Below are positions 51,458-54,555 of a stretch of 64,000 bases of DNA, in pieces. Source of the stretch: Sphingorhabdus profundilacus. GTDB lineage: Bacteria > Pseudomonadota > Alphaproteobacteria > Sphingomonadales > Sphingomonadaceae. The notes beneath the pieces were generated by a model, which searched no databases, was not told the origin of the DNA, and saw nothing but the letters and a program-made list of their open reading frames with translations. The stretch is taken from NCBI RefSeq assembly GCF_009769755.1, contig NZ_SDWJ01000001.1:186001-250000 (forward strand), read 5' to 3'. Position 1 is the stretch's first letter, and each line of letters opens with the position of its first letter. Made by a program: the position numbers and the translations under genes.

Positions 51458-52330
51458 ATGTCTGAGGTGGCACCATTAAGTTTTCAGGACCTGATCCTGA
51501 CTCTCCATGATTATTGGGGTAAGCAGGGCTGCATCATTTTGCAGCCTTATGACATGCGCGTCGGGGCAGGGACTTTCCATCCCGCAACGACCTTGCGGGC
51601 GCTCGGCCCCGACAGTTGGAACGCCGCCTATGTGCAGCCTAGCCGCCGCCCCACCGACGGGCGTTATGGCGAGAACCCCAACCGGTTGCAGCATTATTAC
51701 CAATATCAGGTCATCATGAAGCCCAGCCCCGCCAATTTGCAGGAGCTGTATCTGGGTTCGCTCGACGCCATCGGCATTGACCCGTTGAAGCATGATATCC
51801 GTTTTGTCGAGGACGACTGGGAAAGCCCGACTTTGGGGGCATGGGGTCTGGGCTGGGAAGTGTGGTGCGACGGTATGGAGGTGACGCAGTTCACCTATTT
51901 CCAGCAAATGGGCGGCTTTGATTGCAAGCCTGTCGCGGGCGAGCTCACCTACGGTCTTGAGCGTCTCGCCATGTATATCCAGGGTGTCGACAGCGTCTAT
52001 GACCTGAAATTCAACGATCATGGCGTCACCTACGGCGATGTCTTCCACAAGAATGAAGTCGAGTTTTCGACCTATAATTTCGAAGTCGCCGACACCGCCG
52101 CGCTGTTCGACGGCTTTGCCAAGGCCGAGGCGGAATGTCAGCGGTGCATTGCGGCGAGTATCCCGCTCGCGGCCTATGACCAGGCGATTGAGGCCAGCCA
52201 TTTGTTCAACCTGCTGCAGGCCCGGGGCGTTATTTCCGTGCAGGAACGTGCATCTTATATGGGCCGTGTCCGCGATCTCGCCAAAGGCAGTTGTCAGGCG
52301 TGGATGGAAAAGAATGGATGGACGGAATAA
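51458..52330 (+). CDS. glyQ: Glycyl-tRNA synthetase alpha subunit
   Basis: This 290-residue catalytic subunit of the heterotetrameric enzyme activates glycine and, with the beta subunit, charges tRNA-Gly. The class II motifs are in [22 protein letters not shown] (around residues 40-61) and [14 protein letters not shown] (about 139-152), with [18 protein letters not shown] near 160-177. The length is normal. glyS begins within the glyQ stop codon (1-bp overlap), so the subunits are translated together. Confidence 0.97.
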
Positions 52331-54555
52331 TGGCCGACTTCCTTCTCGAACTTCTTTCCGAAGAAATCCCTGCGCGGATGCAGGTCAAGGCCAAGGAAGA
52401 CCTTGCGCGGCTTTTTAACGAGGCGCTGGCCAAGGCTGGTCTTGCCGCGCAGTCGGTCGAAACCTTTGCCACGCCGCGCCGTCTGGCGCTGATTGCCAAA
52501 GGTTTGCCGTTGGCAACCGAGGCGGTGTCCGAAGAAACCAAGGGTCCGAAGGTCGGCGCGCCTCCACAGGCGATGGAAGGCTTTTTGCGAAAAACCGGTC
52601 TGACACAGGACCAGTTGGTGGAGCGCGATGGCATCTATTTCGCTGTCGTCGAAAAGCCCGGGCGCAACACGGCCGACGTGCTCGGTGACGCGATACCCGC
52701 AATCATCCGCGCATTCCCTTGGCCCAAGTCGCAACGCTGGGGCGCGGCGTCGATTTCGACCGAAAGCCTGCGTTGGGTTCGCCCGTTACAGGGCATTATT
52801 GCTCTGCTCGGCAATGATATCGTGCCCTGCGCCATTGATGGCATCGAAAGCGGACGCCACAGCATGGGGCACCGGTTCCATTCGCGCGGCCCCATCGAAA
52901 TCGCCAATGCCGACGCCTATGTCGAGGCGTTGCGCGCGGCGCATGTGATCGTCCACTTCTCCGAACGCTGCACGCTGATCCGTGATGGGGCAAAGGCCGC
53001 GGCTGAGGCTGCCGGTCTGGTGCTGGTGGATGATGAAGGCCTCGTTGCCGAAAATGCCGGACTGACAGAATGGCCGGTGCCGATGCTCGGCCGGTTCGAT
53101 CCTGCCTTTCTGGAGGTTCCGCAAGAGGTCATCCAGCTAACTGCCCGGGTGAACCAGAAATATTTCGTCTGCCAAACTCCCCACCCGCTTGCGGGAGGGG
53201 CCGGGGACGGATCAAGTTCGGAAGCGGCGTTACCCTCCCCTAACCCCTCCCGTAAACGGGAGGGGGATCTTGCCAATGCCTTTGTCTGCACCGCGAACAT
53301 CGTCGCGAACGATGGCGGGGCCGCGATTGTTGCGGGTAACGAAAAGGTATTGGCCGCACGGTTGAGCGATGCGAAATTCTTCTGGGAACAGGATCTGAAG
53401 GTTCCGCTCGATGAACAGGCCAAAAAATTGGCGCAGATTACCTTCCATGAAAAGCTGGGGACGGTTGCCGACAAGGTAGAGCGCGTCGCCAAACTGGCGC
53501 GCTGGTTGGTTGAAGAGGGTGTCGTCAAAGGAGCGAATGCCGACGAAGCCGAGCGCGCAGCGCGGCTTTGCAAAGCCGACCTCGTCACCGGAATGGTTGG
53601 CGAATTCCCCGAACTGCAGGGCATCATGGGCGGCTATTATGCCCGCGCACAGGGTGAAAGCAACGCCGTCGCCGATGCTGTACGCGATCATTACAAACCG
53701 GTCGGGCAGGGCGACGATGTGCCGACCGCGCCGGTCACGGTGGCGGTGAGTTTGGCGGATAAGCTGGATACGTTGCTTTCGTTCTTTGATATTAAAGAAT
53801 TTCCAACAGGTTCGAAAGATCCATTTGCTTTACGGCGCGCTTCAATCGCTATTATAAGATTGATAATTAATAATAATCTTAAATTACACACAGACGCACC
53901 AATAGAGTTTTGGTTAGGTCAATCTGATCCGAAAGCCCAACTAAGCGACCATGATATGGAACGCAGGGGGTTGTTGACCATAGTTCAAGATTTTCTCGCA
54001 GACAGATTGGCGGTGCAGCAACGTGAAGCGGGGATTCGTCACGATTTCGTTTCTGCGTCTAGCGATTGGCTCGGGCGAGGTGATGGGCGATTAGATAGAA
54101 TCGTGATTCGTGCCGAGGCGCTGCGAGGCTTCGTGACAACCGACGAAGGCGCAAATCTTCTGGCCGGTTACAAACGTGCGGCGAATATCCTGAAGCAATC
54201 GGGTGATGACAAAAACAACCGTCACCCTGAACTTGTTTCAGGGTCTTATTCTGCAGACGGCGAAAATACTAAGATGCTGAAACAAGTTCAGCATGACGGT
54301 TTGAGTGATGTTGAAATTGTGCTTAAATCAGCCCTCGACACCGCTGAACCCAAGGCTGCGGCTGCCGTTGATACCGAGGATTTTGAAGGTGCAATGGCCG
54401 TTTTGGCTAGTTTACGTGCTCCCATCGATGCGTTCTTCGACGCCGTGATGATAAATGACCCTGACCCCTCAATCCGCGCCTTCCGGCTGGGCTTACTCGC
54501 GCGGTTCCGCGATGCGGTGCACAGGGTTGCGGATTTTTCGAAAATAGAGGGATAA
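52330..54555 (+). CDS. glyS: Glycyl-tRNA synthetase beta subunit with two in-frame repeat insertions
   Basis: This 741-residue subunit binds tRNA-Gly; E. coli GlyS is 689. The N-terminus FLLELLSEEIPARMQVKA and core landmarks (VNQKYFVC, KVLAARLSDAKFFWEQDLK, VADKLDTL, TGSKDPFALRRA) are intact. The frame carries two repeat elements: one of about 87 bp at 53179-53265 (giving PHPLAGGAGDGSS...PSPNPSRKREG) and one of 81 bp at 54219-54299 (HPELVSGS...MLKQVQHDG). Both are multiples of 3 and open. Between about 53761 and 53940 GC falls to about 36% by hand count against 72% in the 60 bp before, while encoded residues stay family-like. Confidence 0.93.
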   Translation: MADFLLELLSEEIPARMQVKAKEDLARLFNEALAKAGLAAQSVETFATPRRLALIAKGLPLATEAVSEETKGPKVGAPPQAMEGFLRKTGLTQDQLVERDGIYFAVVEKPGRNTADVLGDAIPAIIRAFPWPKSQRWGAASISTESLRWVRPLQGIIALLGNDIVPCAIDGIESGRHSMGHRFHSRGPIEIANADAYVEALRAAHVIVHFSERCTLIRDGAKAAAEAAGLVLVDDEGLVAENAGLTEWPVPMLGRFDPAFLEVPQEVIQLTARVNQKYFVCQTPHPLAGGAGDGSSSEAALPSPNPSRKREGDLANAFVCTANIVANDGGAAIVAGNEKVLAARLSDAKFFWEQDLKVPLDEQAKKLAQITFHEKLGTVADKVERVAKLARWLVEEGVVKGANADEAERAARLCKADLVTGMVGEFPELQGIMGGYYARAQGESNAVADAVRDHYKPVGQGDDVPTAPVTVAVSLADKLDTLLSFFDIKEFPTGSKDPFALRRASIAIIRLIINNNLKLHTDAPIEFWLGQSDPKAQLSDHDMERRGLLTIVQDFLADRLAVQQREAGIRHDFVSASSDWLGRGDGRLDRIVIRAEALRGFVTTDEGANLLAGYKRAANILKQSGDDKNNRHPELVSGSYSADGENTKMLKQVQHDGLSDVEIVLKSALDTAEPKAAAAVDTEDFEGAMAVLASLRAPIDAFFDAVMINDPDPSIRAFRLGLLARFRDAVHRVADFSKIEG
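53179..53265 (+). repeat. In-frame palindromic repeat insertion in glyS (CCCCTCCCG family)
   Basis: A 22-bp palindrome (CCCCACCCGC...GCGGGAGGGG) at 53179-53200 and another (CCCCTCCCGT...ACGGGAGGGG) at 53244-53265 flank 43 bp. This is the layout of the non-coding element at 11115-11218. The 87 bp encodes 29 residues rich in Pro, Ser and Gly inside GlyS, after VNQKYFVC and before ANAFVCTANIV. Confidence 0.85.
54219..54299 (+). repeat. In-frame repeat insertion in glyS (CCCTGAACTTGTTTCAGGG family)
   Basis: A first copy at 54219-54248 and an inverted, slightly diverged copy at 54271-54299 bracket 22 bp. The 81 bp encodes HPELVSGS...KQVQHDG between GDDKNN and SDVEIV of GlyS. Same family and paired layout as the intergenic pairs at 6467 and 20629. 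Confidence 0.9.

Follow-up and report, generated by a model that had tools for sequence, protein, structure and literature searches.

A facing pair of CGTC-tagged REPs lies in frame within glyS, the gene for the β subunit of glycyl-tRNA synthetase, in the window, a stretch of 64,000 nucleotides from the genome of Sphingorhabdus profundilacus (contig NZ_SDWJ01000001.1, positions 186,001 to 250,000). This arrangement is very probably best explained by REP insertion that is tolerated at permissive linkers of GlyS. The first-pass annotation had recognised the facing pair and its stop-free frame, and both observations were borne out: the dimer together with nucleotides 54299-54300 encodes residues R631-G657 of GlyS (peptide RHPELVSGSYSADGENTKMLKQVQHDG) within a reading frame that opens with TTG at 52291 and continues to 54555 without an internal stop. 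The same annotation had placed a second, different repeat family in frame in this gene, and this repeat was also recovered (Table 1).

The product of the frame covers the entire TIGR00211 glyS profile with 686.9 bits. The genome, whose assembly is 99.97% complete, gave a single match to PF02092, which was glyS itself; the check for a second intact glyS that had been proposed earlier thus returned no further gene of the β type, the type covered by this search. The frame directly upstream presumably represents glyQ. The gene glyS is essential. Among three species, its codon positions 1 and 2 agreed at 1243 of 1400 sites and position 3 at 326 of 700, a conservation that, judged from the alignment, appears as in a working gene. 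An assembly artefact or a pseudogene is extremely improbable, considering the codon conservation, the frame that is open throughout, the lack of another glyS among the matches and the presence of the identical insert at the identical site in two other genomes (G004 and G019).

Table 1 Features of the glyS region, with positions counted from the first nucleotide of the window
Feature	Position	Strand	Description
Probable glyQ, α subunit	51458..52330	+	ORF of 290 aa, directly upstream of glyS
glyS, glycyl-tRNA synthetase β subunit	52330..54555	+	741 aa from ATG 52330; TIGR00211, PF02092, DALR_1
Second palindromic repeat, C-rich	53179..53265	+	CCCCTCCCG..CGGGAGGGG; in frame, GlyS residues about 284-312
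Entire dimer as single inverted repeat	54217..54301	+	
CGTC-tagged REP facing dimer, tag to tag	54220..54298	+	
Tag CGTC	54220-54223		
Hairpin 1	54224..54244	+	ACCCTGAA-CTTGT-TTCAGGGT; 8-bp perfect stem, 5-nt loop
Hairpin 2, inverted copy	54274..54294	-	+ strand ATGCTGAA-ACAAG-TTCAGCAT; 8-bp perfect stem, 5-nt loop
Complement of tag, GACG	54295-54298		

The arms of the dimer (54217-54248 and 54270-54301) are 88% complementary and reach slightly past the pair as delimited at first. A fold of the corresponding RNA (54217-54304) was predicted at -44.4 kcal/mol, with a z-score of -8.0 against shuffles. At both GlyS inserts, AlphaFold2 gave pLDDT values below 50 (residues 289-309 for the second repeat); such very low confidence is the pattern predicted for disordered linkers and may also stem from the few sequences that align there. 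In its tag, stem, loop, number of copies and pairing, the glyS insert fits the CGTC REPs, an already known kind of repeat, of which it is a typical case. The CGTC tag is situated at one end of the unit and is unpaired within it, and both hairpins have an A-T first pair and dimensions inside the range of this class (stems of 8-9 bp, loops of 4-5 nt). The short unpaired tail reads CTT in the glyS copy and, in some other copies of the genome, CCA, the commonest tail in CGTC REPs.

Genome-wide, the core CCTGAACTTGTTTCAGG was matched 203 times in 2.9 Mb at up to 2 mismatches, compared to 1 match for the reversed control pattern; the window alone contained 9 matches at up to 3 mismatches against 0.08 expected. 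Clusters of the repeat were surveyed in the window and 43 further stretches, which jointly contain all 84 exact copies. The 161 units found formed 80 clusters, 75 of them intergenic, 3 in genes and 2 across a gene edge, with 82% of the surveyed DNA called coding by a small home-made gene finder. A plain facing pair was present in 55 of the 80 clusters, so that opposed dimers predominate as in CGTC REPs; they may correspond to the HH type of Di Nocera et al. (2013; PMC3733652). The three genes with internal clusters were glyS, truB (TIGR00431) and a gene for a DinG-like helicase, whose NCBIfam scores were under the curated cut-offs. In the helicase frame (L103:1735-4614), a repeat-derived stretch and then a GNGDGDGGG-rich run follow after residue 110.

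The first-pass annotation had also proposed selection on the repeats for at least one open frame, which the dimers contradict. Short facing dimers (n=25) had a mean of 1.32 open frames out of six, compared to 1.91 in dinucleotide shuffles, and long ones (n=30) 0.43 compared to 1.49. At least one frame was open in 22 of the 25 short dimers (0.92 of the shuffles) and in 11 of the 30 long dimers (0.84 of the shuffles). The TGA within the stem closes one frame per strand, as was seen in every one of the 55 facing pairs. Selection on the repeats for open frames was rejected, open frames being rarer than in shuffled DNA. The frame that encodes HPELVSGS was free of stops in 7 of the 25 short dimers and in 4 of the 30 long ones; it is used by the five glyS carriers of the CGTC REP and by truB of G000. 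The left unit of the helicase copy is read in another frame, and with so few independent events inside genes a frame bias cannot be claimed. Selection on the gene has let the glyS copy survive, and this copy gives no sign of coding selection on the repeat.

Inserts of repeat type recur in GlyS of related bacteria. The proteins compared were 109 distinct sequences of 662-879 residues, from 38 genomes of the genus and 71 further loci. Any glyS match was obtained from 43 genomes of the genus; G001, G007, G020, G021 and G025 gave fragments only and were left out, G036 and G041 had no match, and six loci failing the start-motif filter as well as 33 duplicates were excluded. Part of the variation among the proteins is due to inserts near core positions 183, 282, 376 and 592. 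Some relatives have an insert-free GlyS, others different repeats at the same sites. By peptide patterns, at least one repeat-type insert was recognised in 53 of the 109 proteins, a share that is no population frequency since the sequences had been retrieved by their resemblance to the query. At least two were present in 15 of the 109, and two captures in one gene, which had been regarded as striking, are thus unexceptional here.

The families were assigned by peptide patterns of our own definition, which distinguished seven near 376 and nine near 592. Several of these have C-rich or PAQAG-like stems in common, and some assignments look wrong (L183, L202 and L219 start like another C-rich family). 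A merged count was made for this reason; when similar families were conservatively united, three groups with different stems were left near 376 and three near 592. Longer segments matching none of the patterns (37 near 592, 6 near 376 and 3 near 282) were scored as no repeat, and some of them look like repeats. A perfect hairpin of at least 7 bp was contained in 66 of the 72 repeat-labelled inserts, compared to 101 of 1440 control segments of the same length from elsewhere in the same genes. Two such hairpins were found in 57 inserts and in 9 control segments; five of the six hairpin-free inserts belong to the RPELVEG family. Near core position 505, another, highly variable insert reaches about 70 residues, and 46 of the 109 proteins have at least 10 extra residues there; it looked unlike a palindromic repeat and was left out of the counts.

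All these inserts could descend from one ancient insertion that diverged into seemingly different families, in line with the common-origin view of RPE-4, RPE-6 and RPE-7 in Rickettsia. Close relatives indeed share one insert per site: G000, G004 and G019 have the same one, with a shortened remnant in G003, and G011, G013, G014, G023 and G027 share an insert near 376. Moreover, several pattern families with similar C-rich stems may be one group. A common origin is nevertheless very unlikely, as groups with different stems persisted after merging and as the families are dispersed in different genomes. Three insert families that were tested had 3-49 matches per genome in their carriers and in two insert-free neighbours (both orientations and the glyS insert itself included), but none in the genome of the window. 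Carriers and non-carriers are also interleaved on the tree of the GlyS core, a single gene. The Fitch minimum near 376, 592, 282 and 183, with losses included, was 33, 16, 8 and 2 changes for pattern-assigned families, 29, 16, 8 and 2 for merged families and still 23, 14, 8 and 2 for presence or absence only. The distribution in truB points in the same direction: G000 has the insert, whereas G003, G004 and G019, its closest relatives by GlyS, have a short linker devoid of it. A single diverged ancestral insert is disfavoured.

Other tRNA-related genes have comparable sites. In truB (L082:1991-2054), the same CGTC REP dimer is inserted in frame, and two synthetase genes of the same genome that were named by NCBIfam, valS (L299:1981-2067) and ileS (L107:3381-3517), contain in-frame palindromic inserts matching the second glyS family. 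The valS site after GWPDQ contained a repeat (C-rich, RAEPVEV-type or another) in 7 of 37 sequences, and 7 of 8 ileS sequences had a C-rich, RPEPVEG-type or PAQAGA-type peptide after PQWFVPMD; six valS and six ileS sequences of relatives had been fetched because their matches were split, so that these shares are no frequencies. At the truB site, the CGTC REP is found intact or decayed in several species, another repeat in G024 and in G030, and expanded mixtures in G042, G043 and G036. The truB insert of G043 (L295) is strongly expanded, with HPEATHR-like tandem units and several repeat remnants, and a milder expansion is seen in G036 (L296). A third, weaker set of tRNA-synt_1 matches, which we take to be LeuS, had among the matches listed a frame 832-871 residues long in 35 genomes and one of 946 residues in a single genome, fragments at contig ends excluded. 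Its mostly uniform length indicates that not every synthetase is equally affected.

Near 376, several families have insert starts that lie only a few codons apart, and single sites recur in ileS, valS and truB. Such close clustering counts against mere tolerance, since it would also be expected from target preference, in which a shared mobilising enzyme or an exchange between repeats would use the linkers as true DNA target sites. A site-specific mechanism of this kind appears unlikely. By eye, no common target motif was apparent in the flanks of the inserts, and a search of the genome for a RAYT (Y1_Tnp) gene with PF01797 gave 0 matches, with 5 of 14 control genomes positive, although other enzymes are possible. 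Furthermore, the predicted linkers would explain at the protein level why these two sites are used in this GlyS. Survival at permissive linkers is favoured over DNA target preference. The in-gene copies seen in the genome are mostly tRNA-related (glyS, valS, ileS and truB), which random survival would not obviously predict; this share is no fair count, since synthetases were searched on purpose.

The hairpin arms are conserved at the nucleotide level. In G000, G004 and G019 they were identical at all 51 bases tested, compared to the agreement of 326 of 700 third positions in the gene. Six insert groups sharing site and family (five of glyS, one of truB) were analysed, all of which are reported; we had chosen them from intact copies, which biases conservation upward, and in their arms 66 of 67 synonymous-capable codons for the same residue were unchanged, compared to 81 of 116 in spacers and edges and 1692 of 3085 (55%) in the rest of the genes. 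The latter rate predicts about 38 of 67 unchanged arm codons. Simple tolerance does not predict a synonymous conservation of the arms. The palindrome might act in glyS as a nucleic acid, in the form of an mRNA hairpin or a DNA cruciform, and be kept by selection on its base sequence, as the stable RNA fold and the unchanged arm codons would suggest. We consider such a role doubtful, because intact arms were the basis on which the groups had been chosen, decayed copies were also observed (G003 in glyS; G002, G011, G031, G035 and G041 in truB) and many species are insert-free. In addition, independent recent insertions of one family are possible in some groups (L184, L185 and L220, with 10 of 24 spacer and edge codons unchanged), and conversion by other copies would yield a pattern identical to that of selection on the hairpin. 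A tentative extension would regard a handful of linkers in tRNA-related enzymes of the Sphingomonadaceae as common docking sites for many unrelated palindromes, with the arms of docked copies maintained at the nucleotide level in addition to the protein code. If true, a captured repeat would be dual-coding, serving both as a translated linker and as a working mRNA or DNA hairpin in glyS, and not tolerated junk. Through the conserved arms, the question of whether a repeat captured by a gene continues to function as a repeat becomes open to test.

According to the preferred reading, tolerance at permissive linkers, a dimer of the CGTC REP, which has about 200 units in the genome, would have entered a linker in the C-terminal part of GlyS, the DALR anticodon-binding region, and would probably have been present since an ancestor that this genome has in common with two close relatives. 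Translation would proceed across the repeat and add 27 residues between two helices, which the enzyme would tolerate. REPs may land widely, and their survival inside a gene would require an open frame and a permissive linker in the protein. The outcome would be a few fixed sites in glyS, ileS, valS and truB that are filled in each lineage from the repeats of its own genome. We infer that the peptide is made and neutral and that the linkers are truly disordered; purifying selection, and not target preference, would concentrate the sites. The inserts also provide a natural catalogue of places in tRNA synthetases that accept some 25-50 foreign residues.

REPINs and GTAG REPs are dispersed palindromic pairs, as is the repeat described here, and are mobilised by RAYTs. 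The tag of the glyS repeat is CGTC, not GTAG, and a RAYT-mobilised GTAG REP was rejected on account of this tag and of the search with PF01797.

Di Nocera et al. (2013; PMC3733652) characterise CGTC REPs by the tag, a stem of 8-9 bp, a loop of 4-5 nt and an A-T first pair; the repeats are mostly intergenic and paired in opposition, and a dedicated transposase is not known. In-frame REPs are mentioned there for E. litoralis and S. alaskensis, where tRNA synthetase genes and truB are among the carriers. The glyS repeat matches this account in tag, stem, loop, intergenic bias, opposed pairs and occasional in-frame copies, and the gene list in Additional file 3 of that paper may already include glyS. 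The paper places REPs in genes of one functional category at different sites, recB of two Xanthomonas being the exception, whereas in our sequences different repeats share sites in glyS, ileS, valS and truB. Among the open-access literature matches listed, with supplements outside the scope, none described repeat sites that recur in glyS; in the accessible text of the RepRanger paper (PMC12306157), the terms 'intragenic' and 'Sphingo' had no match.

The R. japonica genome paper (PMC3767692) describes RPE-4, RPE-6 and RPE-7 as coding palindromes that are in frame, also in PheT and IleS. The RPEs are solvent-exposed in three modelled proteins, and different RPE groups occur at one locus across orthologs. 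RPE-4 and RPE-6 were classed as CGTC REPs in PMC3733652. Like these elements, the glyS repeat is a palindrome in frame within a conserved ORF, and it contains the ATGAC motif (CATGACGG); its host belongs to Sphingorhabdus and not to Rickettsia, or to Wolbachia, where related elements occur. The authors of PMC3767692 lean toward a common origin of RPE-4, RPE-6 and RPE-7 and leave hotspots open, in contrast to the present sites, whose repeats comprise distinct kinds with copies scattered through separate genomes. The recurrent occupation of the same linkers in glyS, ileS, valS and truB by different repeats goes beyond the content of both papers (PMC3733652; PMC3767692) as far as their available text extends. 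It bears on the question raised by the Rickettsia RPEs, one old insertion or repeated hits, and the present bacterial family points to the latter, with different repeats hitting the same linkers.
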